DNA of 64,000 nucleotides from Embleya scabrispora (lineage in GTDB: Bacteria > Actinomycetota > Actinomycetes > Streptomycetales > Streptomycetaceae), in the NCBI RefSeq assembly GCF_002024165.1, contig NZ_MWQN01000001.1:3575365-3639364 (forward strand), read 5' to 3'. This document shows positions 27,933 to 50,889 of this stretch, piece after piece. The notes beneath the pieces were generated by a model. The model was given only the letters and a program-made list of their open reading frames with translations, searched no databases and was not told the DNA's origin. The first letter of the stretch is position 1; the number at the start of each line of letters is the position of its first letter. The position numbers and the translations under genes were made by a program.

Positions 27933-28076
27933 CTTGTTGGGCGCTTGCGCCGGCTCGCGAGGGGACCGGGTGCGAGCCTGGGGGGTGACTTGTTGGGCGC
28001 TGTGCGCCGTGCGAGGGGACCGGGTCCAGCATGAGGGATGACTTGTTGGGCGCTTCGCGCCGGCTCGCGAGGGACC
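27918..28076 (+). repeat. Three tandem ~55-bp units leading into the structured element
   Basis: GACTTGTTGGGCGC occurs at 27931, 27987 and 28040 (periods 56 and 53), each followed by a GCGCCGG/GCGCCGT hairpin arm and GCGAGGGGACC or GCGAGGGACC. The third unit is the head of the ~210-bp structured element. The first overlaps the end of the Nudix gene. Confidence 0.8.
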
Positions 28077-28250
28077 ACTTTTTTCTCTCCCCCGCTTCGC
28101 TCCTCCGAGAAAAAAGCGGCCCCTCGCTCGGGGCCGGGTGCTCCTCCGCTTCGCTCCGGGTCACCCGGCCCAAACTTTGCGGCTCCCGCCGCTCTCCGCG
28201 CTGCGCGCGTCGATCGCGTGGGTGGCCCGGGTCGGGGGCGCTGACGCGCC
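28041..28250 (+). repeat. Structured intergenic repeat, copy 1
   Basis: About 210 bp, homologous end to end with the reverse complement of 50681-50889. It is a chain of hairpins: GGCGC/GCGCC; CTTTTTTCTC (28078-28087) with GAGAAAAAAG (28107-28116) around a 19-nt loop; GGCCCC/GGGGCC; GGCCGGGTG/CACCCGGCC; and CGCGCTGCGCG. The long hairpin has an identical loop but a different, still fully paired stem in copy 2. No ORF is preserved between copies. The remainder up to marP (28251-28430) shows nothing recognisable. Confidence 0.85.
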
Positions 28251-28430
28251 TGGGAGTGGCCGCGGCGGGGGCGTTGGGGTGTTTGGGGTGGGGATGTGGC
28301 CAGGGGGTTCGCGTTGTGCGGGGGTGGGCTGATGGTGCGTCAACAGCGGGTTCGTACGGCTGTGTCACCGGTGTTCGACGAACCGGCACGGCTGCGGACA
28401 GCGCGGGCTCGCACGTGAGAACGTGAGCGC

Positions 28431-29615
28431 GTGAATGTCCTGGACCTGTTGCTGCTCGCCGCCGCGGTGGCCTTCGCCATCTCCGGATACCGGCAGGGCT
28501 TCATCGTCGGCGTGCTCTCGTTCCTGGGCTTCATCGGCGGCGGCGTGTTCGGCATGTGGCTGGTGCCCTCGCTGCTGAACCGGTTCGAGCCGGGGCTCGG
28601 GCCCTCGATCGCGGCGATCTGCGTCGTGCTCGTGCTGGCCACCGCGCTCCAGGCGTTGACCACCGCGGCCGGCAACCGACTGCGCCGCCAACTCACCTGG
28701 CGACCGGCGCGCCTGGTGGACGCGGCCGGCGGCGCGATCGTGAGCGTGTGCGCGCTGTTGATCGTGGTGTGGCTGATCGGCTCCTCCGTCGCGGGCGCGT
28801 CGATGCCCACCGTCTCGCGCGAGGTGCGCTCGTCCCAGGTGCTCGGCGGCGTGCAGAAGGTGTTGCCCCGGGGCGCGGACACCTGGTTCTCCTCGTTCGG
28901 CAACCTGCTCGATCGCAACGGCTTTCCGCAGGTGTTCAGTCCGTTCGTGCGCGAGGACATCCCGCAGGTGCCGCCGCCGGACCCCAAGTTGTTGTCGATG
29001 CCCGCGGTCCGGGACAGCCAGGACAAGATCGTCAAGATCGTCGGCACCGCGAAGAGTTGCGGCAAGGTGATCGAGGGCTCCGGCTTCGTCTACGCGCCGC
29101 AGCGGGTGATGACCAACGCGCACGTGGTCGGCGGCGTGCGCAAGCCGACCGTGCAGATCGGCGGCGAGGGCCGGGCGTACGAGGCGGAGGTCGTGCTCTA
29201 CGACTGGAAGCGCGACATCGCGGTGCTCAAGGTGCCCGGACTCAAGGCCACCCCACTGCTGTTCGAGCCCAAGGTGGAGAGCGGCGCGGACGCGATCGTG
29301 GCGGGCTTCCCGGAGAACGGCGCCTTCCACGTCGAGGCCGCGCGCGTGCGGGCCCGGATCCAGGCCGGCGGTCCGGACATCTACAAGCGCGGCACGGTCA
29401 GTCGCGACGTCTACTCGCTCTACGCGAAGGTCCGCCAGGGCAACTCCGGCGGACCGCTGATCTCGCCGAACGGCAAGGTCGCCGGGGTGATCTTCGCCAA
29501 GTCGCTCGACGACGAGTCCACCGGATACGCGCTCACCGTCGAGGAGGTCCGCGCGGACGCCGAGGCGGGCGCGGTCGCCGACCGCCCCGTGGACACGCAG
29601 AGTTGCGCGATGTGA
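28431..29615 (+). CDS. MarP-type membrane-anchored serine protease
   Basis: 394 residues from GTG 28431. N-terminal CvpA-like region with four membrane helices (1-125), then a periplasmic chymotrypsin-fold protease: His in MTNAHVVGG (~230), Asp in KRDIAVLKV (~261), Ser in RQGNSGGPLIS (~340). Cys near 210 (SCGKVIEG) and near the C-terminus (TQSCAM) match the regulatory disulfide of mycobacterial MarP (Rv3671c), a protease needed for acid resistance and acting on cell-wall hydrolase maturation. Position after the CoA pyrophosphatase is also conserved. Confidence 0.94.
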   Translation: MNVLDLLLLAAAVAFAISGYRQGFIVGVLSFLGFIGGGVFGMWLVPSLLNRFEPGLGPSIAAICVVLVLATALQALTTAAGNRLRRQLTWRPARLVDAAGGAIVSVCALLIVVWLIGSSVAGASMPTVSREVRSSQVLGGVQKVLPRGADTWFSSFGNLLDRNGFPQVFSPFVREDIPQVPPPDPKLLSMPAVRDSQDKIVKIVGTAKSCGKVIEGSGFVYAPQRVMTNAHVVGGVRKPTVQIGGEGRAYEAEVVLYDWKRDIAVLKVPGLKATPLLFEPKVESGADAIVAGFPENGAFHVEAARVRARIQAGGPDIYKRGTVSRDVYSLYAKVRQGNSGGPLISPNGKVAGVIFAKSLDDESTGYALTVEEVRADAEAGAVADRPVDTQSCAM

Positions 29616-29658
29616 CGTCGAACCGCCGGGCCGCCGGCCCACGCGGGCCCGTGACGGG

Positions 29659-29892
29659 TCAGCGCGGGAAGCGCAGACGCAACGTCAACCAGCGCGCTCG
29701 CCGGCGCAATATCCCCATCAGCCCCGGGAAATGATCCTCCCGTTCGGCAACCGCGCCGGCCGGCGCCCCTCGCTCGTGCTCGAACCCTTGGGTACCGGTG
29801 GTGTGGATCTCAACCATGAGGGTCTCTGCCGTCTCCGACCGGGTGTCCCCGGCCCCCGCCGCCATGCTCGGAGCGTTGTACGTCCGGCTCAT
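29659..29892 (-). CDS. Small hypothetical protein
   Basis: 77 residues from ATG 29892: MSRTYNAPSMAAGAGDTRS at the N-terminus and LAEREDHFPGLMG-like AEREDHFPGLMGILRRRARW near the end. Third codon positions are strongly G/C and the sequence is not low-complexity, which supports coding. I recognise no domain, and no good ribosome site is visible. It lies alone between marP and the epoxide hydrolase. The frame stays open to 30012. The remaining 29893-30043 holds no other gene. Confidence 0.45.
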   Translation of the reverse strand: MSRTYNAPSMAAGAGDTRSETAETLMVEIHTTGTQGFEHERGAPAGAVAEREDHFPGLMGILRRRARWLTLRLRFPR

Positions 29893-30043
29893 ACGGGGTC
29901 GCCTACCCGGGCCACCGACGGCGTAATCGCGCCGCCCGCCGGGCCGGAAACGATTCCCGAGCCGACTCGGGGCGATCCGTACGGAAGTGTCGGATATGCC
30001 CATCGAGATCACACAACGAAGACCCGAAAGCGCTGTCGGAACT

Positions 30044-30964
30044 TCAACGCTCGGGTTCCGGATCCTTCAGCCAGCCCAGCAGTTCCTCGGTGAACATCGC
30101 GGGTTGTTCCTCGTGCGGGAAGTGCCCGACGCCGTCCAGCAGTCGCCAGCGGTACGGCGCCTCCACGTAGCGCCCGGAACCGGCCGCCGTGCGCGGCAGG
30201 ATCACCGGATCGAGGGCGCCGTGCAGATGCAGCGTGGGCACCTCGACGGGAGCCTTCATCCGGGCCGAGTACTGGATGCCGTCCGGGCGCGGGATGGAGC
30301 GGATCAGCCACCGGTAGTGCTCGGCCGCGCAGTGCGCGGTGCCCGGCACCAGCATCGCCTGGCGATAGCGGGTGAACGACTCGTCGACCGGCCGGCCCGG
30401 CGCCGACCACGCGCGCAGCATGTCGCCCACCATCGCCGCGTCGTCGCGGATCAGTTGCCGCTCGGGCACCCACGGCCGCTGGAAACCGAAGATGTGCGAA
30501 CTCGCCGCCATCTGGTGACGGTCCGTCAGCAGCGCGCCGCGCAGTCGCCGGGGGTGCGGCATCGACACCGCGACCAGTCGGCGGACCACCTTGGGCCGCA
30601 ACACCGCGGCGGTCCACCCCAGGTAGGCGCCCAGGTCGTGGCCGACCACGATCGCGTCCGGCTCGCCGAGTGAGCGGATCACCCCGGTCACGTCCAGGGC
30701 CAGGGTGATCGGATCGTAGCCGCGCGGGGTGCGGTCGCTGCCGCCGTAGCCGCGCAGGTCCATCGCGACCGCGCGGTAGCCGGCCCGGGCCAACGCCTGC
30801 ATCTGGTACCGCCAGGTCCACCAGAACTGCGGGAATCCGTGCAGCAGCAGCACGACCGGTCCCTCGCCCGTCTCGGCGATGTGGAACCGCGCGCCGTTGG
30901 CGGCGATGTCGCGGTGCGTCCAGGGCCCGGCCACGTTGACCACGGTGCTCTCGGGAACCGTCAT
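30044..30964 (-). CDS. Alpha/beta-hydrolase, epoxide hydrolase type (EphE-like)
   Basis: 306 residues. HGFPQFWWTWRYQ is the oxyanion-hole HGxP motif of epoxide hydrolases; the nucleophile elbow is VGHDLGAYLGW with Asp rather than Ser, which marks epoxide hydrolase or dehalogenase chemistry. HGALDPVI and GVGHFPHEEQP carry the acid and His. Lid-domain Tyr candidates are present (FTRYRQAML). The position between marP and the holin-like gene matches ephE (Rv3670). Likely detoxifies lipid or xenobiotic epoxides in the cytoplasm. Confidence 0.92.
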   Translation of the reverse strand: MTVPESTVVNVAGPWTHRDIAANGARFHIAETGEGPVVLLLHGFPQFWWTWRYQMQALARAGYRAVAMDLRGYGGSDRTPRGYDPITLALDVTGVIRSLGEPDAIVVGHDLGAYLGWTAAVLRPKVVRRLVAVSMPHPRRLRGALLTDRHQMAASSHIFGFQRPWVPERQLIRDDAAMVGDMLRAWSAPGRPVDESFTRYRQAMLVPGTAHCAAEHYRWLIRSIPRPDGIQYSARMKAPVEVPTLHLHGALDPVILPRTAAGSGRYVEAPYRWRLLDGVGHFPHEEQPAMFTEELLGWLKDPEPER

Positions 30965-31040
30965 GCCGAGCAGGGTTGCACACTCGCGATCGCACTCCTG
31001 TTTCCGCGCCCGGTTTCCCCGGCCCGGGCGCGCCGCGGGG

Positions 31041-31460
31041 TCAGCCGACGTTCTTGAGCGTGGTGATCGTGTCCTGGGTGGTGGTGATCGTGCGCTCCGG
31101 CGGCCGGACCTTCTTGAACGACGCGATCCCGTAGTACCCGAGCGCGCCCGCGAGCAGCAGGTAGAAGCCGCCGACGATCAGGAAGCTCCACGCCACACCC
31201 AGTCCGAGGGCGTGGATTCCGTACACGACCGCGAAGCTCAGGAAGACGAACGCGAACACGCCGACGAAGGCCGCCGCGCCGAACGCGCCGCCGCCCTTCG
31301 CGACGTTGACCACGCTGACCTTGACCTCGCTCTTGGCGAGCGCGATCTCGCTGCGCACCAGGGTGGACATGTCCTTGCTGGCGGACGAGAACAGCTCGCC
31401 GAGGGATCGCTGTGCGTCGACGGGCACGTCCTGGGCCGGGGACCTGTCGGTGCCTGCCAT
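31041..31460 (-). CDS. Phage holin-like (Holin-X type) small membrane protein
   Basis: 139 residues from ATG 31460, with GAGGAG six nt upstream. A helical N-terminus (LGELFSSASKDMSTLVRSEIALAKSEVKVSV) is followed by two membrane helices (GAAAFVGVFAFVFLSFAVVYGI and AWSFLIVGGFYLLLAGALGYYG). This is the actinobacterial Phage_holin_3_6/Holin-X family, chromosomal and conserved next to ephE (Rv3669); despite the name it is not evidence for a prophage. Function unknown. Confidence 0.88.
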   Translation of the reverse strand: MAGTDRSPAQDVPVDAQRSLGELFSSASKDMSTLVRSEIALAKSEVKVSVVNVAKGGGAFGAAAFVGVFAFVFLSFAVVYGIHALGLGVAWSFLIVGGFYLLLAGALGYYGIASFKKVRPPERTITTTQDTITTLKNVG

Positions 31461-31577
31461 GGTCACTCCTCGTACCGGTATGGATAAGCCGAACCCCGAT
31501 CATGCCCTGCTGCGGCGATACGTATCCACCGGGGCACGTCGTACGAGTGTTTCGGATGGGAAACGAAGCAATCCGGA

Positions 31578-32894
31578 CTACGCGAGCTTGTCCCGGCGCA
31601 GCCGATCGGCGTCGCCTTGATACACGTCGGGGATACCGTCGCCGTCGTCGTCGCGGTTCTCCTCGGCACACAGCCGGGCGTAGGTGTTGTTGCGTATCCG
31701 CAGGACGACCGTGGCCGCCGCGGCGGAGAGCACCGAGCCGATCAGGACCGCGGCCTTCGCCTGTTCGGTGAGCACCGGGTCGTCGGTGAACGCGAGTTCG
31801 CTGATCAGCAGCGACACGGTGAAGCCGATGCCGGCCAGCATGGACATGCCGAACACGTCGGGCCAGGCCAGGTCGTCGCTGAGTTGGGCCCGGGTGAACC
31901 GGGCGACCAGCCAGGTGCCGACGAAGATGCCGACCACCTTGCCCGCCATCAGGCCGAGCAGGACGCCGAGCGTGGGCCGGTGGGTGAACACGTCGCCGAG
32001 CACCGGGCCGGAGACCGCGACACCCGCGGACAGCAGCGCGAAGATCGGCACCGCCAAGCCGGCGGAGACCGGCCTGACCAGGTGTTCGACGTGCTCGGCG
32101 GGCGAGGTGCGCTCGTCCCGGTCCGGGACCACCCGCATCAGCAGGCCCATCGCCACACCGGCGACCGTCGCGTGCACCCCGCTCTCGTGCATCAGCGCCC
32201 AGATCACCAGCGCGAGCGGTACGTAGAACCACCAGCCGCGCACCCGCCGGCGCTGAAGCAGCCAGAAGACCACGAGCAGCGCGAATGCTCCGGCCAGGGC
32301 GAGGAAGTTCACCGAATCGGTGAAGAAGATCGCGATGATCAGGATCGCGCCCAGGTCGTCCACCACGGCCAGGGTGAGCAGGAACGAGCGCAGCGCGGAC
32401 GGCAGGTTGGTGCCGATCACCGCGAGTACGGCGAGCGCGAACGCGATGTCGGTCGCGGTGGGGATGGCCCAGCCGTCCGGCGAGCCGCCGCCGGTGTTCA
32501 CCGCGAAATAGAACAGCGCGGGGGTGAGCATCCCGCATCCGGCGGCGACCACCGGCAGGATCGCCTGGGCCGGATTGCGCAGGTCGCCCACCACCAACTC
32601 GCGCTTGAGTTCGATGCCGGCCACGAAGAAGAAGACGGCGAGCAGCCCGTCGGCGGCCCAGGTGCTCAGCGACAGGTCGAGGTGCAGCGCCGAGGGGCCG
32701 AACCGGAAGTCGCGCAGGTCCTGGTAGGCGTCGCTCCACCCGGTGTTCGCCCAGACCACCGCGACCACCGCCGCGATCAGCAACAGCGCGCCGCCGACCG
32801 TTTCGGTGCGCAGCGCGTCGGCGATGAAGTTCCGCTCGGCCAGGGTGGACGGACGCCGAAAGAACTTGTTGCGTGGTGCGGACTCGGCACCCAC
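31578..32894 (-). CDS. nhaA: Na+/H+ antiporter NhaA
   Basis: 438 residues with about eleven membrane helices, from GTG 32894 (GGAGG 5 nt upstream). NhaA signatures: FFFVAGIELKRELVVGDL, NTGGGSPDGWAIPTATDIAFALAVL with the paired Asp region (LAVVDDLGAILIIAIFF) that carries the two Asp of the ion site, and GIGFTVSLLISELAF. It exchanges cytoplasmic Na+ for external H+. The C-terminal tail ends with DDDGDGIPDVYQ, a calcium-loop-like DxDGDGxxD motif outside the transport core. It precedes the holin-like gene on the same strand. Confidence 0.95.
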   Translation of the reverse strand: MGAESAPRNKFFRRPSTLAERNFIADALRTETVGGALLLIAAVVAVVWANTGWSDAYQDLRDFRFGPSALHLDLSLSTWAADGLLAVFFFVAGIELKRELVVGDLRNPAQAILPVVAAGCGMLTPALFYFAVNTGGGSPDGWAIPTATDIAFALAVLAVIGTNLPSALRSFLLTLAVVDDLGAILIIAIFFTDSVNFLALAGAFALLVVFWLLQRRRVRGWWFYVPLALVIWALMHESGVHATVAGVAMGLLMRVVPDRDERTSPAEHVEHLVRPVSAGLAVPIFALLSAGVAVSGPVLGDVFTHRPTLGVLLGLMAGKVVGIFVGTWLVARFTRAQLSDDLAWPDVFGMSMLAGIGFTVSLLISELAFTDDPVLTEQAKAAVLIGSVLSAAAATVVLRIRNNTYARLCAEENRDDDGDGIPDVYQGDADRLRRDKLA

Positions 32895-33116
32895 GGGACC
32901 TCCAGGTCGGCTGCGGCTCGCGGGCGTATACCGCCCTGCGAAAACGACAAAACAGCGCCGACCAGACTTCCCGGCATGTCTCCCGACGGGGAAGACCCAC
33001 GACGCGGGAGCGGTGCGAACCGCACCCGGTCCCCGTCAGTGTATCGACAAGATTTTCGATCCTGCCGAGTCGATGCGGGACGCGGCGCGCATCATGGCCC
33101 GCCGCGGGCGGCAACA

Positions 33117-33158
33117 CGAGGGCCCCGTACCGAGGTTGCGCTCGGTACGGGGCCCTCG
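33117..33158. terminator. Strong terminator hairpin
   Basis: 18-bp perfect arms (33117-33134 and 33141-33158) around GTTGCG, just past the end of the deacetylase-like gene (minus strand) and upstream of nhaA. No T-tract. The stretch 32895-33116 has no supported gene. Confidence 0.85.
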
Positions 33159-33181
33159 TGAAGCAGCGTGTCGCCGGTCGG

Positions 33182-34516
33182 TCAGTCCTGTCGGCGCGTC
33201 GGCAGCGCGTTCTCCTCGACGGACAGCGCCCGGTTCGCGGCGGGCTTGTTCGGGCCCTGCGCGGCGGTGATGATCGAGTTCCAGTCCGCCGGAGCCTGGC
33301 CCACGCCCAGCCCCTGGAGCTTGGTGATCACCGCGGGGTCCTGCCCCTCGAGCCAGTCGGTCAACTGACGGAACGTCACGCAGCGTACGTCGGCCTTGGT
33401 GCAGACCGAGGTCACCGTGTCCCGGACGGCGTTCATGTAGATGCCGCCGCTCCAGTCCTCGAAGTGATTCCCGATGAACAGTGGAGCGCGGTTGGTGGTA
33501 TAGGCGCGCTGGAATCCGTTCATGTAGAACTCGTGGGCCTCTTTCTCCCACGCGTCCTTCTTGGACGGGTCGTATTTACCGTGCCGCTGCTCCTGCTCGT
33601 ACATGATGTTGTAGTCCATGGAGAGCTGCGACTTGTTCGGGTCACCCGGCCACGGCAGCGACTGCAGCGGGAAGTCCCAGATTCCCGTCTCCTTGCCGCG
33701 CTTGGGCCACACCTGAAGACCGCCGGCCGAACTCGCGTCGTAGCGGAATCCCATCTCCTTGCCCGCCCGCATCAGGTTCGTCTGGCCCTCCAGGCACGGC
33801 GCGCGGCCACCGATGAGCTCCTTCCCCGGTGCGTAGTCGAACGGCAGCGGCGGAAGGTCGGCGTAGCCGGTGTTGGTCTTCCAGTTCTGGACGAATTTCA
33901 CCGCCTGCTCGGTTTCGTTCTTCCAGTCGGCCGGGCTCCAACTCTTGCCGCTCGTGGCGCTGTTGCAGAAGTGGCCGTTGAAGTGCGTACCGACCTCGTT
34001 GCCCTTGAGCCAGACCTCGCGCATCTGGATGATCGTGTTGCGCACGGTTTCGTCGGACATGAAGTTGATGTCCGACTGGCCCGCGGTGTGCTTCGGGCCG
34101 GTGTACATGGCCTTCTTCGCCTTCGGGAGCGTGTAGATACCGCTCAGGAAGTACGTCATCTGGGCCTTGTTCGCCTCGGACAGCTTCAGGAATTGCGAAA
34201 CCAGCTTGTTGCCGTCCTCGGCCGCGCCATCCCACGAGAACACGACGAACTGCGGCGGTTTCTCCCCCGGCTTGAGCTTCTCCACCTTGGGCTGGTTCGG
34301 CTGGGGACCGGTGTCGGCGGTCGAGCCGTCACCGATCGGTTTGACCGGACCCCTCGGTTTGTCCGATTCCTTACCCGGATCGCTCGGATTTCCGCTGCCA
34401 GGGTTCTTTGCAGAGGAGTTGCCGGAATCTTTCCCGTCCTTTGCGAAAACCACGAAACCGATAGCGGCCAGGACTGCGACAACGACGAGCACCGCAGCGC
34501 CGCGGACAGTTCGCAC
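33182..34516 (-). CDS. Secreted/membrane-anchored polysaccharide deacetylase-like protein
   Basis: 444 residues from GTG 34516 (GGAAGAGG upstream). One N-terminal membrane helix (AAVLVVVAVLAAIGFVVFA), a Lys/Pro/Ser-rich linker (~25-75), then a NodB-like domain: FVVFSWDGAAEDG (metal Asp region), NEVGTHFNGHFC (H-x3-H ligands) and FRYDASSAGGLQVWP. The layout is that of a carbohydrate esterase 4 fold, but the motifs deviate (usual TFDDGP and HTxxH), so another sugar or peptide substrate is possible. Acts outside the membrane. Codon use in the linker is less G/C-biased. Monocistronic. Confidence 0.75.
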   Translation of the reverse strand: MRTVRGAAVLVVVAVLAAIGFVVFAKDGKDSGNSSAKNPGSGNPSDPGKESDKPRGPVKPIGDGSTADTGPQPNQPKVEKLKPGEKPPQFVVFSWDGAAEDGNKLVSQFLKLSEANKAQMTYFLSGIYTLPKAKKAMYTGPKHTAGQSDINFMSDETVRNTIIQMREVWLKGNEVGTHFNGHFCNSATSGKSWSPADWKNETEQAVKFVQNWKTNTGYADLPPLPFDYAPGKELIGGRAPCLEGQTNLMRAGKEMGFRYDASSAGGLQVWPKRGKETGIWDFPLQSLPWPGDPNKSQLSMDYNIMYEQEQRHGKYDPSKKDAWEKEAHEFYMNGFQRAYTTNRAPLFIGNHFEDWSGGIYMNAVRDTVTSVCTKADVRCVTFRQLTDWLEGQDPAVITKLQGLGVGQAPADWNSIITAAQGPNKPAANRALSVEENALPTRRQD

Positions 34517-34723
34517 AGTTCACCTCTTCCCATGGACATGCCGGACCGGGCTGTATTCCCTATCGATACATACGCACGCCGAGGTCACCCGGTTGCGTGC
34601 GTCCCCGGTCCGCTTCCCCGCGTACCCGGGCCGGGATCCATCGGATCGTCCGGAGCGCGTGAGCGCGGACACATCACCGTACGGGGCGTCGGGCCCCGGA
34701 AGCGATCCGGCGTCACCCTCCGG

Positions 34724-35749
34724 TCACGGGTCGGCGCGGAACTCGATCCGCCCGCCGTACATGCCCATCGCACAGGTCCAGTCGATCGTCCCGGGGTGCG
34801 GTACGCCCAGGTCGATCGTGGTCTCGCCGGTCACCGGCAGGACCTGCTGCCGATCGCGCGCGGGCAGGACGAAGCCCCGGGTGCAGCCGGTGGTGTGGTC
34901 GGTGCGCAACACCAGGACGGTGGGTACGCCGGCCCGGGCCAGCGCACGGGCCGGGTGGTAACCCTCGTTCGCCACTCGGACGGTGACGCGCTGCACACCG
35001 TCGGGCCCGGTGCTCGCCGCCGCGTGGTCGACCGCGCCGCGGGCCGTAGGAGTCCACCAGCCGGCCAGGCGCAGTCCGGAGCCGACCGTCCACGCGGCCA
35101 CCACGAGCACCAACACGCCCAGGGCGGCGGTCAGTCGCCCGCGCAGCACCCGACCCGACGCGCCCACGAGCAGCCCCAGGACGGTGAACAGCGGGATGGT
35201 GCCGAGTACGAATCCGGTCAGCACGGCGGCGCCGCCGAGCGCGTTCTGCGAGGTGACGGCGACCAGTTCGGCGCCCAGCGTCACCCCGCACGGGACGAAC
35301 ACGGTGGCCGCGCCCAGGAGCAGCGGCCCGCGCCCGGCGCCGCGGGTCGAACCCCGCGGCAACAACCGGGCCACGCCGGGCACGCCGAGCATGGCCGATC
35401 CGAACAGCGCCATCAGCGCGGCGGCCAGGAGCATCAGGACCGCCCGGGTGCTCGGCGCCGGTTGGATCGCGCCGCCGAGCAGGCCGAGCAGTGCGCCCAG
35501 AACGGCGTGGGCGAGGAGCTTCGCGCCCAGGAAGGCGGCCAGCGCGCGGGGGAGCGGGCGGCGCGAGGGAGGCGCGGCGCAGTCGGCGGCTCCGGTGCGG
35601 TCGGCGCAATCGGTGGGCCCGATGACCGAGGTCGGCCCACACGGGCGAACCGCGCCGACCAGAAGGCCGCCCTGGACCGCCGCACAGGACGCGCCGCCCG
35701 CGGCGAACCCCGCACCGAGCCCGGTCGCGAACAGCGTGAGCACCTGCAC
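34724..35749 (-). CDS. TauE/SafE (UreH-like) membrane protein with C-terminal cupredoxin-like domain
   Basis: 341 residues. Six membrane helices of the DsbD_2/UreH-like type with two short Cys motifs (GGASCAAVQGG and ATVFVPCGVTLG), then from ~245 a periplasmic domain (RVTVRVANEGYHPARALARAGVPTVLV; TIDWTCAMGMYGGRIEF) of the EfeO-type cupredoxin family. The Cys-Met-rich CAMGM end suggests copper or heme handling. A loop of ~40 residues with CGPTS and DCADRTGAADCAAP (residues ~35-60) adds more cysteines. Divergent from the SulP-carbonic anhydrase gene across a region with several palindromes. Metal export or cofactor assembly is inference. Confidence 0.82.
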   Translation of the reverse strand: MQVLTLFATGLGAGFAAGGASCAAVQGGLLVGAVRPCGPTSVIGPTDCADRTGAADCAAPPSRRPLPRALAAFLGAKLLAHAVLGALLGLLGGAIQPAPSTRAVLMLLAAALMALFGSAMLGVPGVARLLPRGSTRGAGRGPLLLGAATVFVPCGVTLGAELVAVTSQNALGGAAVLTGFVLGTIPLFTVLGLLVGASGRVLRGRLTAALGVLVLVVAAWTVGSGLRLAGWWTPTARGAVDHAAASTGPDGVQRVTVRVANEGYHPARALARAGVPTVLVLRTDHTTGCTRGFVLPARDRQQVLPVTGETTIDLGVPHPGTIDWTCAMGMYGGRIEFRADP

Positions 35750-35786
35750 GGCACCACCCCCACTCCGGGGAGATTACGGGCCATCA

Positions 35787-35875
35787 CACACAGTGTGGAA
35801 GGTGCGCGGTGTGAAACATCTGTTTCACCCATATGGGTGCACATTTTACGTTCCGAAAAGGATAGCCTTACCGTG
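35787..35875. promoter_or_regulatory. Stacked operator-like palindromes in TauE/SafE-SulP divergent region
   Basis: Three inverted repeats follow one another: CACAC/GTGTG (35787-35797), GTGAAAC with GTTTCAC (35811-35828) and CACCCATATGGGTG (35826-35839). An iron-box-like AGGATAGCCTTACC follows at 35858-35871. The second and third overlap, so their binders would compete. The sequence here is unusually A+T-rich for this window. GGAGG at 35987 serves the SulP gene. Confidence 0.5.
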
Positions 35876-35999
35876 ACGAGATAAATACTCAGAGTCAAGT
35901 CGGCCTATCCGGCCCGGACACTCTGCTTTCGACCCGCGCGCCGCCACCCCTGCGGCAGCCATGCCCGCCATGACATGACTGACCCCGGAGGACACGGAC

Positions 36000-42990: not shown

Positions 42991-43136
42991 GCGGGGGCCG
43001 TACGGGCCGTTGGTCCCTTTTCTAGTGGGTTGCCGAGAGGAGGGGAACCCCTGACCCAAGATCTTTACTTTCGGCCTTTGTCGGATTTGCTCCGCTGTCG
43101 GCGATCGTCCGGCGTCACCGCGGCCTTGCCGCGTGG

Positions 43137-43943: not shown

Positions 43944-43987
43944 AGTTCACGAGGATAAGGGCAGCCATTCGGCGTAAACTCCGCGTC

Positions 43988-44053
43988 GTGGGTTTGCTAG
44001 AGAACCCCCTCGGGTACATCCTGGAAGTCACGGATCGTTCGCGACCGTGCTAA
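43988..44053 (+). CDS. Putative leaderless micro-ORF (21 residues)
   Basis: GTG 43988 to TAA 44053 encodes a 21-residue peptide with LLENPLGYILEVTDRS. A -10-like TAAACT (43975-43980) lies 7 nt before the GTG, which would make the transcript leaderless; no good -35 is seen. The ORF is followed at once by two crossing hairpins and a T6 tract. I do not recognise the peptide. It could be a free small protein, a leader peptide or a chance ORF. Confidence 0.4.
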   Translation: MGLLENPLGYILEVTDRSRPC

Positions 44054-44059
44054 CCCGGT

Positions 44060-44146
44060 CCGACTCCTCCCCCCCCGAGTCGGCCGCGGAGACGACCCCC
44101 GCTCTCCCCCCCGGCGGGGGTCGTCGCTTGTCCGGGGGGCTTTTTT
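44060..44146 (+). terminator. Multi-hairpin, pseudoknot-capable terminator
   Basis: First CCGACTC (44060-44066) pairs with GAGTCGG (44077-44083). Next GACGACCCCCG (44091-44101) pairs with CGGGGGTCGTC (44115-44125). Its loop contains CCCCCCGG (44107-44114), which pairs with CCGGGGGG (44132-44139) directly before C and six T (44141-44146). The last two pairings cross, so they form a pseudoknot or are alternatives. Nothing gene-like is seen from 44147 to 44594 apart from the 10-bp repeat. Confidence 0.75.
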
Positions 44147-44230
44147 GCGTCCCGATGCGAGTGGACGCGGGTTTTGTTCGGGCGTAGTCGCCGGGGTGGT
44201 AATCCCCGATGCGGGTCGGTTCCCTCGTGA

Positions 44231-44289
44231 TTGTCGGCGGTTGTCGGCGGTTGTCGGCGGTTGTCGGCGGTTGCTGGCGGTTGCCGGCG
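44231..44289 (+). repeat. 10-bp tandem repeat
   Basis: TTGTCGGCGG four times without change (44231-44270), then TTGCTGGCGG and TTGCCGGCG. It lies in the upstream region of the ssd-tad operon. Confidence 0.9.
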
Positions 44290-44594
44290 TTGCGCGTTGT
44301 CGCGGGGAATCGGGGCGGATTTCGGGGTCGCGGGTGGGCGACGGCGCCGGGGCCATGCCGTGGGGTGGGTGGGCGCGAGGGCCCGTGGGGGTGGGCCCTC
44401 GGGTCGGGGTCGAGGTCGGGGTGGGGTCGGAAGGGCTCGGGTGTACCTCACGCGAGTGAATCCGTGATCCACAGTCGCGGGCTTGTCCACAGGTGGGAAC
44501 CACCCGCTCGGCGGAGCGCGCGATCGCCGCGACGGTTGGGGTCAGTTCCCGGGAGGGCCGGTTCGGCCGGACCTCCCCGACCCCTGGAGGTTCC

Positions 44595-45686
44595 GTGGCA
44601 GCCCTTTCTCCACCTCGGCCGGCTCGTCCGCTCCTGGTGACCGGCGATCCGGCCCTGCTCGACGAACTGCTGCGGCTGTGCGCGGTGGCCGGGATCGAGC
44701 CGGAGGTGCAACCGGACGCGGGTGCGGCGCGGGCCGCCTGGCCGGGGGCGCCGTTGGTGATCGTCGGCGACGACGTGACGCCGGGGTTGGCCCGGTGCGG
44801 GCTGCCGCGCCGTGAGGACGTGGTGCTGATCGGCGACGACCTGGACGACGGCGACGTGTGGCGGCGGGCGGTGGACGTGGGCGCGGACCATGTGGTGTTC
44901 CTGCCCGACGCGGAGCACTGGATCGTCGATCGGCTCGGCGATGTCGCCGAGGGCACCGGGCCCGACGCGCACACCATCGCGGTGCTCGGCGGGTGCGGCG
45001 GCAGCGGGGCCAGCACGCTGGCCTGTGCGCTCGGGGTGGCGGCGGTGCGGACCGGGCTGGCCACCGCGCTGGTGGACGTGGACCCGCTGGGCGGCGGCCT
45101 CGACGTGCTGCTCGGCGGCGAGGACGAGAGTGGGCTGCGCTGGTCCGATCTGGCGAGTGCGCGCGGGCGGATCGACGGGGGTGCGCTCTCCGATGCGCTG
45201 CCGCACCTGCACGGGTTGACCGTGTTGTCCTGGGATCGGGACCGGCCGCCCGCGATCCCGCCGGAGACGGTGCGCTCGGTGGTGCGGGCGGTGCGCAGAC
45301 GGCACGACGTGGTGGTGCTCGACGTGCCCCGGCATGCCGATCCGGCGACGGCGGAGGCGCTGCGGCTGTGCGACACGGGGCTGTTGGTGGTGCCGGCCGA
45401 GGTGCGGGCGCTGGCCGCGGCGGCGCAGGTTGCCGGCCGGGTGGGGTCGATGGTGCGCGACCTGCGGGCGGTGGTGCGGCAGCCGAGTTCGTCGGGGCTG
45501 ACCTCCGAAGCGGTCGCGCGGGGACTGGGGCTGCCGCTCGCGGGGGAGTTGCGGCCCGAGGCGGGGTTGGCGGCGGCCACCGAGCGGGGTGATCCGCCGG
45601 GGCTGCGCACGCGGGGGCCGCTGGCCCGGTTCTGCCGCGACTACCTCGCGGGCAATCCGGCCGGCGTGGCGCGGGAGGCGGCGTGA
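44595..45686 (+). CDS. ssd: Septum site-determining-like protein (CpaE/Ssd type)
   Basis: 363 residues from GTG 44595, set by GGAGG 5 nt before; the frame is open to 44493. A receiver-like N-terminal half (LLVTGDPALLDELLRLCAVAG) precedes a MinD-like domain. The P-loop reads LGGCGGSGASTLACALG, lacking both lysines of a normal deviant Walker A, as I recall for mycobacterial Ssd (Rv3660c), so ATP binding may be weak or absent. CpaE-like proteins localise Tad secretion machinery; Ssd affects septation. First gene of the tad operon, overlapping tadA by 4 bp. Confidence 0.9.
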   Translation: MAALSPPRPARPLLVTGDPALLDELLRLCAVAGIEPEVQPDAGAARAAWPGAPLVIVGDDVTPGLARCGLPRREDVVLIGDDLDDGDVWRRAVDVGADHVVFLPDAEHWIVDRLGDVAEGTGPDAHTIAVLGGCGGSGASTLACALGVAAVRTGLATALVDVDPLGGGLDVLLGGEDESGLRWSDLASARGRIDGGALSDALPHLHGLTVLSWDRDRPPAIPPETVRSVVRAVRRRHDVVVLDVPRHADPATAEALRLCDTGLLVVPAEVRALAAAAQVAGRVGSMVRDLRAVVRQPSSSGLTSEAVARGLGLPLAGELRPEAGLAAATERGDPPGLRTRGPLARFCRDYLAGNPAGVAREAA

Positions 45687-47053
45687 GCGCGCGCGAGATG
45701 CCGCCGATGCCGCCGTTCCCGCCGCCGGGCGCGCCGCCGCTGCCGCCGAGGGGCGTGCGGTCGGGGCGGGTGCCGCAGCCGCCGCCGTGGCCGGTGCCGG
45801 CGCCGCCGGTCGGGGGCACCGGGGTCTTCTCCGCGCCGCAGCCGCGACCGGTCGCGGTGCCGGTCGCGGAAGCCGGCCCGGTGATCGCTCCGCCGCCGGA
45901 TCCGGAGTTGGTCGAGGCGGTGCGGGCGCGGTTGGCCGCCGGTGGGCACGAGCCGACGCCCGCGGCGGTGGCCGCGGCGTTGCGGGCCGAGGGGCGGGTG
46001 CTCGGTGAGGCGGCGCTGCCGGACCTGGTCCGGGCGCTGCGGTCGGAGATCGCCGGGGCCGGACCGTTGGACGTGCTGCTGCGCGACCCCGAGGTGACCG
46101 ACGTGCTGGTCAACGCGCCCGACGAGGTGTGGATCGATCGGGGCGCGGGCCCGCAGCGCACGCCGGTGACCTTCGCCGACGACGCGGCGGTGCGGCGGTT
46201 GGCCCAGCGGTTGGCGAGCGGGGTCGGGCGGCGGTTGGACGACGCCTCGCCGTACGTGGACGCCACGCTCGCCGACGGTGTGCGGCTGCACGCGGTGTTG
46301 CGGCCGGTCGCGGTGCGCGGTACGTGCCTGTCGTTGCGGGTTCCTCGGCGTACCTCGCTGGGGGTGGCCGATCTGGTGCGGGCCGGCTCGTTGTCGCCGG
46401 CTGCCGCCGAACTGCTGTGTGCGGTGGTCTCGGCGCGGGCCGCGTTCCTGGTCTCGGGCGGTACCGGGTCGGGCAAGACCACGCTGCTGGGGGCGTTGCT
46501 GGGTTGTGCGCATCCGGCCGAACGGCTGCTGCTCGCCGAGGACTCGGCCGAGCTGACGCCGCGTCACCCGCATGTGGTGCGGCTGGAGTCGCGGCCGGCC
46601 AACGTCGAGGGCGCGGGCGAGGTCACCCTGCGCGACCTGGTTCGCCAGGCCCTGCGGATGCGGCCGGACCGGCTCGTGGTCGGCGAGGTGCGGGGTGCCG
46701 AGGTGGTGGAGCTGCTCGCGGCCCTGAACACCGGGCACGAGGGCGGCTGCGGCACGGTGCACGCGAACTCGGCGGCCGATGTGCCTGCGCGGTTGGAGGC
46801 GTTGGGGGCGCTGGCCGGTCTCGGCCGGGACGCGGTGCACAGCCAGGTGGCGGCCGCGCTCGATCTGGTCGTGCATGTGGTGCGCGAGCGCGACGGGTTG
46901 CGGCGAGCGGCCGAGGTCCATGTCCTGGAACGGGACACGGCGGGCTGGGTACGACCGGTGCCGGCGGTGAGCTTCGAACGCGCCGGCGGCTGCCGCCCGG
47001 GCCCGGGCCACGGCAGGTTGGCCGCGCTGCTCGCGGGGTGGTGGCGCGGATGA
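45683..47053 (+). CDS. tadA: TadA/CpaF-family secretion ATPase
   Basis: 456 residues. A Pro-rich N-terminus (~80 residues) is followed by the all-helical N-domain and the ATPase: [23 protein letters not shown], Walker [19 protein letters not shown] (~270), the Asp box LLAEDSAEL, Walker B region [19 protein letters not shown] and [14 protein letters not shown] with the His box. It powers Flp-type pilus or Tad secretion from the cytoplasmic face. GTG 45683 overlaps the ssd stop. Its downstream partner tadB is pushed away by ~690 bp of repeat DNA. Confidence 0.95.
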
Positions 47054-47090
47054 CAACGACCTCGAAGGCCGGCGGGTCGGCCCGACTGGG

Positions 47091-47545
47091 GCGTCCTCAA
47101 GCGCCGGACGGGCTGGGTGGGTTGCGTTCACCGGTTCGGGTGGCGGTTTTCGGGGGTCTGCGGCGGGCGTCCTCAAGCGCCGGACGGGCTGGATGGGGTT
47201 GTGTTCGCCGGTTCGGGTGGCGGTTCCCGGGGCCTGCGGTGGGCGTCCTCAAGCGCCGGACGGGCTGGTGTTCGCCCGTTTGGGCGGCGGTTCGCGGGCG
47301 CCTGCGGTGGTTGTCCTCAAGCGCCGGACGGGCTGGGTGGGTTGCGTCCACCGGTTCGGGTGGCGGTTTCCGGGGGCCTGCGGTGGGCGTCCTCAAGCGC
47401 CGGACGGGCTGGATGGGGTTGTGTTCGCCGGTTCGGGTGGCGGTTCTCGGGGGCCTGCGGCGGGCGTCCTCAAGCGCCGGACGGGCTGGGGTGGGTTGCG
47501 TCCACCGGGGGGTGCGGTGGTTGTCCTGATGCGCCGGACGGGTGG
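47091..47545 (+). repeat. Seven-copy ~76-bp tandem array between tadA and tadB
   Basis: Each unit starts with GTCCTCAAGCGCCGGACGGG (or a close variant) at about 47092, 47168, 47244, 47312, 47388, 47465 and 47522, and continues with GGTTCGGGTGGCGG and a GGCCTGCGG end. Spacing is 76, 76, 68, 76, 77 and 57 bp. The core is a well-known dispersed intergenic motif of Streptomyces genomes, here amplified in tandem. 47546-47746 is G-rich and holds no gene apart from the tadB ribosome site. Confidence 0.9.
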
Positions 47546-47746
47546 ATGAGGTCGTGTTGGCCGGTTCGGGCGGTGGTTTTTGGGTGCCTGCGGGGGGCGT
47601 TCTCGGGCGCCTGGGTGGGTGGGGGTCGCTGGGGTGGTTGGGGCGGTGGGGCGGCTTGGTTGTGGGTGGTGTCGGGGGTGTGGGAGCCGTGCGGGGCCGG
47701 ATGGTGGTGGGGGTGTTTTTGGTGGCGGTTGGGTGGAGGTGGGTGG

Positions 47747-48586
47747 GTGATTTACGTGGTAATGGGGGCGTTTGGGGTTGGTGGGGTGGTGTGGTGGTCC
47801 ATGGATCGGGTGGGGCCTGGGCGGGTGGCTGGGGTGTTGGGGGTTTCGGGCGAGCTCCGGCGTGGGTGGGGGGCTTGGGTGGGGGTGGTTGGGCGGCGTC
47901 GGTCGGTTGTTGCGGTGTTGGCCGTGGGGGGCTTGGTGGCTCTGGCGCTGGGGTCCGCGGTGCCTGTGCTGGTGGCTTTGCCGGGAGCCTGGGTGGTGCG
48001 ACGGCGGCGGGATCGTGCCCGAGGTGAGCGGGATGCCGGGGCGGTGCGTTGTGGCGTGGTGCGGCTGTGTGCGGCGCTGGCGGGGGAGTCGCGCGCCGGG
48101 CGCACACCGGCACAGGCGTTGGCCGCCGCGGCGCATGCGGTGGATGGGCCGATCCTGGCCGTGGTGGGCGAGGCGATCGGGACCGCCCGAGTGGGTGGCG
48201 ACGTGCCGGACGCGCTGGATCGTGCGGCGGCCGCGCCCGGGGCGGCCGGGCTGCGTCGGATCGCCGCCTGCTGGCGGATCGCGACCGGGCGAGGCGCCGG
48301 GTTCGCACCGGCCCTGGAACGGATCGCGGCGGGTCTGCGGGCCGAGGAGGACGCCCACGAGGAGGTGATCGCCGAACTCGCCGGGGTCCGCTCGACCGCG
48401 CAGGTCCTGGCCGCGCTGCCGGTGTTCGGTCTGTTCCTGGGCAGCGCCCTGGGGGCTCGGCCGGTGGAGGTGTTGTTGCGCACGCCGGTCGGGATCGGGT
48501 GCCTGTGCGCGGGGCTATCGCTCGTGGTGGTCGGTCTGGAGTGGACCGATCGCCTGGTGGCTCGAGCCGGTCCGGTGCCGGGATGA
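47747..48586 (+). CDS. tadB: TadB-family membrane protein
   Basis: 279 residues from GTG 47747 (GGAGG at 47735). Membrane helices near the N-terminus (VVMGAFGVGGVVWW; SVVAVLAVGGLVALALGSAVPVLVALPGAWVV) and C-terminus (VLAALPVFGLFLGSALG; CAGLSLVVVGLEW), with the GspF/T2SF cytoplasmic helical domain between (RTPAQALAAAAHAVDGPILA; ALERIAAGLRAEEDAHEEV). It forms the inner-membrane platform of the Tad apparatus together with TadC, which overlaps it by 4 bp. The open frame reaching back to 47117 is translation of the repeat array. Confidence 0.9.
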   Translation: MIYVVMGAFGVGGVVWWSMDRVGPGRVAGVLGVSGELRRGWGAWVGVVGRRRSVVAVLAVGGLVALALGSAVPVLVALPGAWVVRRRRDRARGERDAGAVRCGVVRLCAALAGESRAGRTPAQALAAAAHAVDGPILAVVGEAIGTARVGGDVPDALDRAAAAPGAAGLRRIAACWRIATGRGAGFAPALERIAAGLRAEEDAHEEVIAELAGVRSTAQVLAALPVFGLFLGSALGARPVEVLLRTPVGIGCLCAGLSLVVVGLEWTDRLVARAGPVPG

Positions 48587-49296
48587 GCGCGACGGCGGTG
48601 CTGGTGGCGGTCGTCGCGGCGGCGGGCGGCGCGGCCGGCGCGGTGCGGGGGCGGGGCCCGGAGCTCCGCCGGCCGTCGGCGCGGGGGCGGGATCCGGCGC
48701 TTGGTCGGCGGGCCGCGGCGGGGCTCGGCGGGGTTGCGGTGTTCGCGCTGCTCGGAGGCTGGCTCGGGGGTGCGGCCGGGCTCGTGGTGGCGGTCGTCCT
48801 GAACCGGCGGCTGACGGGCCTGGAGTCGCGGTCCGGACGGGCCCTGCGGGATCGGCTGCGGGCCGATCTGCCGCCCGCGGCCGACCTGTTCGCGGCGTGC
48901 CTGGTGGCGGGCAGCACACCGGCGGACGCGGCCGATGCGGTCGCGCACGCGGTCGGCGGGCCGCTGGCGGGCCGACTGCGGCCGATCGTGGCCTCGTTGC
49001 GGCTCGGTGGCGACCCCGGGCGGTGCTGGCTCGGGCTGACGGACGACCCCGTACTCGCGCCGCTGGGGCGGGTGTTGGCCCGGGCGGCGACCGGGGGTGT
49101 GCCCGCGGCGGTCCTGGTCGCCGGGATGGCCGACGAGCAACGGGCCGAGCAGCGCCGGGCGGCGACTTCGGCCGCCCGCCGGGTGGGGGTGCGCGCCACG
49201 ATCCCGCTCGGATTGTGCTTCCTGCCCGCGTTCCTGCTGGTCGGGGTGGTCCCGATCGTGATCGGCCTGAGCACGTCGCTGCTGCGGTCGAGGTGA
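48583..49296 (+). CDS. tadC: TadC-family membrane protein
   Basis: 237 residues from ATG 48583. Helices at the N-terminus (TAVLVAVVAAAGGAAGAV), middle (AAAGLGGVAVFALLGGWLGGAAGLVVAVVL) and C-terminus (LGLCFLPAFLLVGVVPIVIG), with a T2SF domain (PPAADLFAACLVAGSTPADA; MADEQRAEQRRAATSAARRV). It is the second platform protein of the Tad system. Translationally coupled to tadB. A 76-bp gap with the pilin ribosome site follows. Confidence 0.9.
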   Translation: MSATAVLVAVVAAAGGAAGAVRGRGPELRRPSARGRDPALGRRAAAGLGGVAVFALLGGWLGGAAGLVVAVVLNRRLTGLESRSGRALRDRLRADLPPAADLFAACLVAGSTPADAADAVAHAVGGPLAGRLRPIVASLRLGGDPGRCWLGLTDDPVLAPLGRVLARAATGGVPAAVLVAGMADEQRAEQRRAATSAARRVGVRATIPLGLCFLPAFLLVGVVPIVIGLSTSLLRSR

Positions 49297-49372
49297 GTCG
49301 GCGAGGGCTTCAACCGAAAAACCCACATTAATGCAGGTTTCATGCAGTTCCGTATCGATGAGGGGGAGACTC

Positions 49373-49570
49373 ATGCGCATGTTGATTCCGAGCGCACGTC
49401 GAGTGTGGTCGTGGCTGCGTGTCGACACCGGGATGACCACCGCGGAATACGCGGTCGGCACGGTCGCCGCAGTGGCGTTCGGCGCGGTGTTGTTCAAAAT
49501 CGTGACGAGTCCGGGAGTCGCTGCAGCGCTCGCCAAGGTGATCACCAAGGCGCTCGATGTCTCGTTCTGA
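49373..49570 (+). CDS. DUF4244 Flp-pilin-like protein
   Basis: 65 residues from ATG 49373, with GGGGGAGA upstream. A short basic leader is followed by GMTTAEYAVGTVAAVAFGAVLFKIV: the G-M-T-x-A-E-Y start, with Glu five residues after the Gly, is the pattern of Flp prepilins cleaved by a prepilin peptidase and assembled by the Tad machinery. No prepilin peptidase gene is in this operon. Overlaps the TadE gene by 14 bp. Confidence 0.88.
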   Translation: MRMLIPSARRVWSWLRVDTGMTTAEYAVGTVAAVAFGAVLFKIVTSPGVAAALAKVITKALDVSF

Positions 49571-49988
49571 GGCTCGCGACGAGGCGGGAACGGGTGCGCG
49601 TGCGGATGCCGGCCGCGCGGCGATGCGGGTGCTTCGCGGGGCGGACGGATTCGTGACCGCGGAGACCGCCGTGGTGTTGCCGGTCCTGGTGGTGGTGACC
49701 GCCGTGCTGACGGCCGGGATCGGGGCCGCCACCGCGCAGATCCGCTGCGTGGACGCGGCCCAGGCGGGGGCGCGTGCGCTGGCGCGGGGCGAGCCGACCG
49801 AGGTCGCGGTGGCGCGGGCCACGGCCGCCGGGCCGACCGGTGCGCGGACGGGGGTGTCCGGTGGGGACGGCCTGGTGCGCTTCCGGGTCACCGCCGAGGT
49901 CGGCGTGCCGGGTGCGGCCTGGGCCGGGATCACGTTCCACGTGGAACATACGGCGGTGGCGGCCGTCGAGGCGGAGGCGCCGCCGTGA
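49557..49988 (+). CDS. TadE-family pseudopilin
   Basis: 143 residues. After a charged leader, GFVTAETAVVLPVLVVVTAVLTAG is a pseudopilin-type helix with the conserved Glu, followed by CVDAAQAGARALARGEPTEVA and an extracellular beta part (RFRVTAEVGVPG). Minor pilin-like component of the Tad apparatus. Start ATG 49557 lies inside the preceding gene, and the stop overlaps the next start. Confidence 0.88.
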   Translation: MSRSEARDEAGTGARADAGRAAMRVLRGADGFVTAETAVVLPVLVVVTAVLTAGIGAATAQIRCVDAAQAGARALARGEPTEVAVARATAAGPTGARTGVSGGDGLVRFRVTAEVGVPGAAWAGITFHVEHTAVAAVEAEAPP

Positions 49989-50542
49989 GGGCAGGCCGGT
50001 CGGGACAGGAGGGCTCGGCCACGTTGTGGGTGCTTGCGTTCGCGCTGGTCCCGATGTGCGCGGCGGCGTTCGTCTTCGTCTTCGCCGGAGCGGTCGCGGC
50101 CCGACACCGCGCCGGTGCCGCCGCCGACCTGGCCGCACTGGCCGCCGCAGCTCGATCCGCCGGCGGCTCCGGCCCCGACGAGGCCTGCGCCTGGGCCCGC
50201 CGAGTGGCCCGAGCCCAGCAAACGAGTCTGACAAGCTGCCGCCTCACCAACGGCTTCGCCGAGGTCCGAGTATCGGCCCCCACCCGAATCGGCACAGCCC
50301 ACGCCACCGCCCGAGCCGGCCCGGCCGCCGAACCACCGCAGCCCACCCCAACCAGCCCACCCACTCGACACCCGGCGTCCCCGCACGAGCCCCAGCCGAA
50401 CCGAACGGCGCCGAACCGCCCAAAAAACAACCACCAACCACGCCGACCGACCCCGTCCCGGCCGCGGCACGGGTCGCGGGAGGGGTGCGCCGACCCGCCC
50501 CGTGGCCGGGTGCGATGCGCGTCTGCTTCGCAGCCGGGATGA
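49985..50542 (+). CDS. TadE-like helicase/secretion neighbourhood protein (Rv3654c type)
   Basis: 185 residues from GTG 49985. The conserved part is residues 1-~115: GSATLWVLAFALVPMCAAAFVFVFAGAVAARHRAGAAADLAALAAA (membrane anchor and Ala-rich helix) and CRLTNGFAEVRVSAPT. Homologues end soon after the ARAGPA that closes this part; here the frame continues ~70 residues through Pro/Arg/Thr-rich sequence into the intergenic region, so the stop was probably lost or moved. Last gene of the tad operon. Confidence 0.82.
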   Translation: MRAGRSGQEGSATLWVLAFALVPMCAAAFVFVFAGAVAARHRAGAAADLAALAAAARSAGGSGPDEACAWARRVARAQQTSLTSCRLTNGFAEVRVSAPTRIGTAHATARAGPAAEPPQPTPTSPPTRHPASPHEPQPNRTAPNRPKNNHQPRRPTPSRPRHGSREGCADPPRGRVRCASASQPG

Positions 50543-50680
50543 AGTCCCACGCCGCAGGCGGCGACGCGTGTCCGCCACGCGGCCCGACGGTGTGGCGCTG
50601 CGCACATGGCACCCGTCCGCCACGCGGCCGAGGCAGACGGCCAACTCCCGACTTCACCCGCCCAGGTCGGCCCCCCACTG

Positions 50681-50889
50681 GGCGCGTCAGCGCCCACGAC
50701 TCGGGCCACCCACGCGATCGACGCGCGCAGCGCGGAGAGCGGCGGAGCCGCCAGTTTTGGGCCGGATGGCCCGGAGCGAAGCGGAGGGACAGCCGGCCCC
50801 GAGCGAGGGGCCGCTTTTCTGCGGAGGAGCGAAGCGGGGGAGCAGAAAAGTGGTCCCTCGCGAGCCGGCGCGAAGCGCCCAACAAGAAG
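50681..50889 (-). repeat. Structured intergenic repeat, copy 2
   Basis: Reverse-complement copy of 28041-28250, about 209 bp. Read on the minus strand, CTTTTCTGC (50850-50842) pairs with GCAGAAAAG (50822-50814) around the same 19-nt loop as copy 1, TCCCCCGCTTCGCTCCTCC. It sits between the tad operon and the minisatellite. 50543-50680 has only two short direct repeats of CGTCCGCCACGCGGCC and no gene. Confidence 0.85.

Follow-up and report, generated by a model that had tools for sequence, protein, structure and literature searches.

Two copies of a non-coding repeat of about 207 bp lie in the 64,000-nt stretch of the Embleya scabrispora genome analysed here (contig NZ_MWQN01000001.1, positions 3,575,365 to 3,639,364; called the window, with positions counted from its first letter), and one strand of this repeat reads as six consecutive hairpins, M1 to M6. 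It is established that the element is a mobile, genus-specific repeat. It likely acts as folded single-stranded DNA of the type seen at streptomycete telomeres, and we infer that DNA and not RNA is the active form, that a telomere-type protein recognises it and how the element is copied. Taken as a whole, the reading of a non-coding, mobile element that is specific to Embleya and works as folded single-stranded DNA in the manner of telomeres leaves us with an evenly balanced case.

The two window copies were noticed in a preliminary description made from the sequence alone, which took them to be homologous over their whole length. This was borne out, as blastn aligns 28041-28250 (+) and 50681-50886 (-) end to end at 92% identity. 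A covariance model built from 33 copies, with copy 1 included and copy 2 excluded, recovers copy 2 with an E-value of 9e-64 (211 bits) and copy 1 with an E-value of 2.9e-63 (209.4 bits), and its third-best match in the window is at chance level (E 0.27). The main hairpin had been described exactly as found, with the stems CTTTTTTCTC/GAGAAAAAAG and CTTTTCTGC/GCAGAAAAG around an identical 19-nt loop (TCCCCCGCTTCGCTCCTCC); the stem is real, but its extent was given too short, for it continues outward (GCGAGGG../..CCCTCGC) to 20-21 bp. Instead of the four further hairpins that had been counted there are five (M1, M2, M3, M4 and M6), and the strand that folds is the opposite of the one that had been written out, on which the extended copy-1 stem has A.C mismatches where the opposite strand has G.T. 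The features of the two copies and their surroundings are as follows.

28043..28250, minus strand (the folded strand): element copy 1, with M1 at 28250 and M6 at 28049 (blastn, covariance model, DNA fold)
28237..28250, minus strand: M1 hairpin of copy 1, GGCGC(GTCA)GCGCC (sequence and DNA fold)
28197..28209, minus strand: M2 hairpin of copy 1, CGCGC(GCA)GCGCG (sequence, hairpin comparison)
28179..28192, minus strand: M3 hairpin of copy 1, GCGGC(GGGA)GCCGC; the loop is GGA in most copies (sequence, loop counts)
28132..28170, minus strand: M4 hairpin of copy 1, with the core GGA-GC(GAA)GC-GGA, the module that streptomycete telomeres also have (arm-pair counts, covariation, plasmid and telomere searches)
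28067..28127, minus strand: M5 hairpin of copy 1, a 21-bp stem comprising the main hairpin first described and its outer extension (arm-pair counts, DNA fold, covariation)
28049..28061, minus strand: M6 hairpin of copy 1, GGCGC(GAA)GCGCC, on the side that would face a DNA end (sequence and DNA fold)
27934..28025, plus strand: two tandem extra partial copies of the M6 end beside copy 1 (read by eye; one is a partial blastn match, 27932-27963)
50681..50886, plus strand (the folded strand): element copy 2 (blastn; covariance model, 211 bits; minimum-energy and centroid DNA folds agree, both with M1 to M6)
50681..50694, plus strand: M1 of copy 2 (DNA fold)
50722..50734, plus strand: M2 of copy 2 (DNA fold)
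50739..50751, plus strand: M3 of copy 2 (DNA fold)
50759..50799, plus strand: M4 of copy 2 (DNA fold)
50803..50861, plus strand: M5 of copy 2 (DNA fold)
50867..50879, plus strand: M6 of copy 2 (DNA fold)
50905..52063, no strand assigned: satellite array with a 30-bp unit in 39.6 copies, next to the M6 end of the second element (repeat analysis)

Six hairpins on one strand

In the family consensus, M1 is GGCGC(GTCA)GCGCC, M2 is CGCGC(GAA or GCA)GCGCG and M3 is GCGGC(GGA)GCCGC; M4 has the core GGA-GC(GAA)GC-GGA, M5 has a 20-21-bp stem with the core GGAGGA-GC(GAA)GC-GGGGGA, and the loop of M6 is C(GAA)G or C(GGA)G. Across copies the stems are swapped while the loops are almost fixed. Among 78 distinct copies, the M1 loop is GTNA in 73 (5 unparsed), the M2 loop GAA in 47 and GCA in 28 (3 unparsed), the M3 loop C(GGA)G in 75 (3 other) and the M6 loop C(GNA)G in 66 (2 departing, 10 unparsed). 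The arms of M4 occur as GGCCGGGTG, GACGGTGTG, GACTTCGTG and GACTTCGGG, each paired with its own complement, and those of M6 as GGCGC, GGCGAC, GGCGCC and GGCGGC. Some copies in Streptomyces sp. SID3343, which we read as an Embleya, are without a regular M6, and in the M2 of this genome symmetric G.A/A.G pairs replace two G-C pairs.

The strand that folds is the one reading M1 to M6. On this strand the mismatches in the M4 and M5 stems amount to 77 G.T vs 3 A.C and 43 G.A vs 1 T.C, with a further 14 G.G or A.A, in a count of distinct arm pairs (41 for M5, 24 for M4), which do not amount to independent events; nine of the ten M5 G.A mismatches sit at the two outermost positions. An asymmetry of this size is too large for a strand-neutral pattern of departures, and it fits RNA and single-stranded DNA alike. 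DNA-fold z-scores are -3.75 (copy 1) and -3.98 (copy 2) for the folded strand and -2.46 and -2.35, respectively, for its complement. The minimum-energy DNA fold of the folded strand of copy 2 holds all six hairpins, and the complement gives versions of five hairpins for copy 1 and a different fold for copy 2.

Covariation was assessed over the 33 copies, in an alignment in which some M5 helix columns (154-156) are misaligned through register shifts between stems of unequal length. Paired stem cells make up 96.0% compared with 90.2% in shuffles, 19 of 57 pairs are changed on both sides (12.7 +- 1.5 in shuffles), and doubly changed cells number 100 (33.0 +- 4.2 in shuffles); none of 500 shuffles attains the observed pairing, the two-sided pairs or the doubly changed cells. 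The covariation score is 0.198 vs 0.095, and slid controls are just 33-53% paired. The search of the genome and its relatives and the covariation check, run with shuffles, had both been proposed beforehand, and they found neither a repeat limited to two copies nor an absence of covariation. Together with the strand-biased mismatches, the covariation counts support the earlier view that a structure in RNA or single-stranded DNA has been conserved.

How the double changes arose is a separate matter. At all eight orthologous loci compared M5 differs, yet no M5 pair is broken in the eight orthologous pairs; the count of doubly changed M5 pairs is inflated by register shifts here and only the absence of broken pairs was used, and most of the 'broken' M4 pairs are G.A mismatches that have changed position. 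The copy at C1:4223542 is a hybrid, with one arm from each stem type. Since different stem types stand at orthologous loci and such a hybrid exists, the double changes must in part reflect whole-arm copying between copies rather than independent compensatory mutation. M4 types are also reassorted between the arms of paired copies (composites, described below), which indicates that segments are exchanged between copies. The rarity of mismatched hybrids nevertheless argues that either selection or hairpin-templated repair keeps the arms paired, and it is established that one or the other maintains the fold of the one strand. The "strong evidence of selection" seen in the two window copies is therefore to be taken with caution, as the double changes are partly whole-arm copies. 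As an observation on its own, the copy at G000:C2:718366 has M4 and M5 fused at their common GGAGCGAAGCGG core, as might result from template switching or recombination between hairpins.

A mobile family restricted to Embleya

The preliminary description knew of two copies. The source genome has at least 46 near-full-length ones by blastn (40 of 248 candidates were scored, so more may exist) and at least 52 full-length ones in total, when one read separately and five pair partners, found via the M1 palindrome and confirmed by the covariance model, are added; truncated, fused and degenerate copies come on top of these. M1 alone (GGCGCGTNAGCGCC) occurs 61 times in this genome, compared with 4 times for a control pattern. 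Of 33 loci, with one truncated copy on contig C2 left out, 30 are on the contig of 7.0 Mb in which dnaA is located at 3.33 Mb (P 0.00045 under an even spread).

Among the genomes searched, the family is restricted to Embleya. The covariance model (E 0.001) finds it in all four Embleya genomes, the other three being E. hyalina, a second E. scabrispora and SID3343, and in none of 57 other genomes, for which the filters were stricter and no more than 40 candidates were scored in each. With blastn, 10 of these 57 gave one short match each (28-62 bases, E 5e-5 to 1e-3), none spanning the element. A blastn search against plasmid records matched one place in a linear replicon of Embleya sp. NBC_00888 that is 5.73 Mb long.

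The element is mobile and occurs both as single copies and as composites. The copy-1 site is element-free in all three sister genomes, which have short spacers between the CoA pyrophosphatase gene and marP and no covariance-model match there, at marP identities of 99% (E. hyalina), 93% and 89%. The final codons of the gene for CoA pyrophosphatase (window 27204-27932), and with them its C-terminus, differ from those of the three sister genomes, which coincides with the copy-1 insertion, and the two extra partial M6 ends precede copy 1 in the source genome. At the copy-2 site, E. hyalina has no element and the E. scabrispora sister genome has a partial, degenerate one (E 2.6e-8); in SID3343 the contig ends short of the locus, which allows no comparison. 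One composite site is without the element in SID3343, the only sister genome readable there. At 9 of 33 loci, E. hyalina has an element between flanks that match on both sides, at 79-98% identity. A duplication boundary at an element in E. hyalina (NZ_BIFH01000057/58) was set aside as an apparent error of the public assembly, given that the first 12 kb are identical (0 differences) and that the contigs part within the element, where there is a stretch of N.

In each of the 13 composites a spacer separates two elements in facing orientation, with M6 outward, and each joins one arm with and one arm without an ATCACCA linker. The spacer is 114-117 bp long in 11 of them and 141 and 150 bp in the other two, with a mean pairwise identity of 79%; no pair in the opposite arrangement is in the source-genome list of M1-palindrome pairs. 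A satellite-related hexamer is found 118 times beside the M6 ends of composites where 23.2 are expected, and more weakly beside single copies (34 on the M6 side and 20 on the M1 side, expected 17.9). The satellite beside the M6 end of copy 2 (50905-52063) contains CGGGTCGCGACCCG-like palindromes. Elsewhere in the window, positions 44054-44129 match 6C RNA (RF01066), barely over the gathering score.

Likeness to streptomycete telomeres

As an array of hairpins with three- to four-nucleotide GNA-type loops on one strand, the element resembles the ends of linear streptomycete replicons. According to PMC8743542, the hairpins found most often across the six streptomycete telomere classes are GAA, GGA and GTA. 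PMC4513846 describes GCA loops closed by sheared G:A, in hairpins of a kind bound by Tap, and, for the archetypal telomere, a minimal length of 167 bp with seven palindromes in it. E. australiensis is reported in PMC13152386 to have two Tap-Tpg pairs and, besides its linear chromosome, a linear secondary replicon of 4.2 Mb, so that, by analogy, telomere machinery is likely at hand in the genus.

When the whole element was compared with 72,556 plasmid records by blastn, four Streptomycetaceae records were matched besides Embleya; these four are linear, and each match lies at most 220 bp from the left end on the overhang strand. The M4 core matched 152 plasmid records, of which 96 were examined (the 60 best and 36 further). 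Of the 26 Streptomycetaceae among these 96, 18 have the match within 450 bp of the record end, all 18 on the 3'-overhang strand, and 8 have it internally, compared with a single match near an end among the 70 other records. The reversed core, used as a control query, matched 17 records, none near an end. The covariance model also matches six telomere stretches (L200, L198, L197, L190, L189 and L199; E 1.7e-6 to 0.027), five of which had been picked through their likeness; among 14 contig starts of eight relatives, just two, both of genome G033, were matched.

All loci found are internal, none at the end of a linear replicon. At E up to 0.1 the model matches nothing within 3 kb of either end of any of the eight source contigs, which may lack true telomeres, or of NZ_CP108785. 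The element as a present Embleya telomere is ruled out for NBC_00888 by reading of the sequence and by the lack of a model match. The two ends of NZ_CP108785.1 from this strain (L195, L196) are identical, with three palindromes whose loops on the overhang strand are GTA, GGA and GTA. A literature search of limited coverage found no account of dispersed internal telomere-like repeats.

Several points weigh against a telomere-type DNA element. The E-values are modest (0.01-0.6 for the whole element, 0.1-6 for the core), the likeness rests on one short module, the M4 core, and 8 of the 18 terminal core matches are from S. anulatus and not independent. A query of M2 and M3 gave no terminal match among the five streptomycete records listed (40 of 101 records shown). 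The Embleya telomere of NBC_00888, at both ends, has GNA-type loops but another sequence, without a model match. The M4 core is also present in plasmids of Xanthomonas, Burkholderia and Klebsiella, and the model matches an internal Dactylosporangium locus (E 0.00036) and seven alphaproteobacterial loci (E 0.008-0.032; 49 bases in each case), all of them chosen because they have the motif, so that very stable GNA hairpins may have arisen by convergence. Further pair types in the covariation analysis number 39 vs 36.0 in shuffles, a value matched by 51 of 500, and G.T pairs are no worse a fit to RNA than to DNA. A clean target duplication was not observed, in flanks whose low complexity hides any. 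The orientation of copies, judged by eye, has no relation to the replichores. Separately, positions 2160-2245 of one stretch from Dactylosporangium sucinum, a non-streptomycete, contain two hairpins with the same CCGGAGCGAAGCGG core.

If the telomere-type reading holds, one strand of the element, when single-stranded as DNA, would fold into six hairpins with mostly GNA or GTNA loops, which is the architecture of a telomere 3' overhang. Such exposure might occur during replication, repair or the element's own copying, and a hairpin-binding protein, most likely a relative of the host telomere proteins, would recognise the folded strand. The element would spread as single copies and as composites, the latter laid out like a miniature linear replicon with an inverted end on each side. 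A bolder version, which we consider doubtful, is that a telomere design escaped into the chromosome as a mobile element, with composites as integrated miniature linear replicons whose telomere-type ends are recognised by Tap/Tpg-like proteins, and with internal copies that the linear chromosome could use for priming, for exchange or as ends held in reserve.

Competing explanations and known systems

The folded strand might instead be transcribed, for example in a 3' untranslated region, and act as a structured RNA in stability, termination or protein binding. A strand-specific fold rich in G.T pairs and showing covariation would suit such a role, as would the surroundings of the copies. No predicted gene overlaps any of the 33 loci (by a simple codon-usage gene finder), in keeping with the earlier view that the element is non-coding as far as seen, and the 25 loci with both neighbours predicted comprise 11 convergent, 10 tandem and 4 divergent ones, where the convergent share exceeds that among neighbouring genes of the window, 9 of 41 pairs (P 0.012). 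We nevertheless think an RNA element rather unlikely. No Rfam family matches, either at gathering scores or, for five loci, at E up to 0.1, and membership of an Rfam RNA family was dropped; the flanks past M1 are unconserved, so that no common promoter is seen; composites orient two copies oppositely; presence at a site varies between sister genomes; and telomeres have the M4 core too.

Another explanation, which we also hold to be improbable, is a repeat of the repetitive extragenic palindromic (REP) or miniature inverted-repeat transposable element (MITE) kind, moved in trans by an ordinary transposase, whose likeness to telomeres is convergence on stable GNA hairpins. It would account for the empty sites and for the core motif in plasmids of unrelated bacteria and in Dactylosporangium. 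Like REPs, the element consists of dispersed intergenic palindromes often in inverted pairs, and as to MITEs, the composites have inverted arms and the flanks are too low in complexity to show a duplication. However, no Y1_Tnp domain (PF01797), the one transposase family searched for, was found in any of the four Embleya genomes, while the same search was positive in 5 of 14 control genomes; a longer, gene-bearing copy was not systematically searched for. Membership of the REP family with its REP-associated tyrosine transposase (RAYT) was dropped on this ground. The streptomycete matches, moreover, are mostly at replicon ends on the overhang strand. A phage or viral origin was likewise rejected, as a scan of viral contigs for the pattern was empty and phage records gave six weak matches, four in tail genes and two in an RNA ligase gene. 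Finally, the copies could be telomere relics, captured ends of lost linear replicons kept alike by recombination and of no present function, as their motif and layout, the exchange of arms between copies and the degenerate and fused copies might suggest, but the number of full-length copies in which pairing is kept, at least 52, and the recent insertion of copy 1 point to present activity, and we hold this explanation to be very improbable.

Should the telomere-type reading be correct, it would join two things that are usually separate, replicon ends and dispersed repeats. More than 50 natural variants would be available to work out what features telomere hairpins depend on, and the element would offer a testable handle on the rearrangement and homogenisation of linear streptomycete genomes, in a genus reported to have a large secondary linear replicon.

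The claim that the element fits no known repeat class has stood, as no class could be matched. REPs and bacterial interspersed mosaic elements (BIMEs) are dispersed intergenic hairpins, often in inverted pairs, that go with RAYT (Y1) transposases, and REPs carry a GTAG box; the element shares their dispersal between genes and their inverted pairs, but differs in its length of about 207 bp with six hairpins and in the lack of a Y1 transposase in the four Embleya genomes. Enterobacterial repetitive intergenic consensus (ERIC) sequences, BOX elements and other MITE-like repeats are longer than 100 bp, intergenic, structured and lineage-specific, in all of which the element is alike, and it differs from them in its telomere-type loops, its strand-specific wobble pattern and its two-copy composite with a spacer. 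Compared with streptomycete telomeres, both archetypal and of other classes (with Tap/Tpg or Tac/Tpc), the element is internal, dispersed, present in more than 50 copies, mobile and without a free end, its stems and module order differ, and its sequence is not that of the Embleya telomere of NBC_00888. What it has in common with them is the close packing of hairpins with three- to four-nucleotide GNA-type loops on the 3'-overhang strand, the core GGAGCGAAGCGGA and a similar size.

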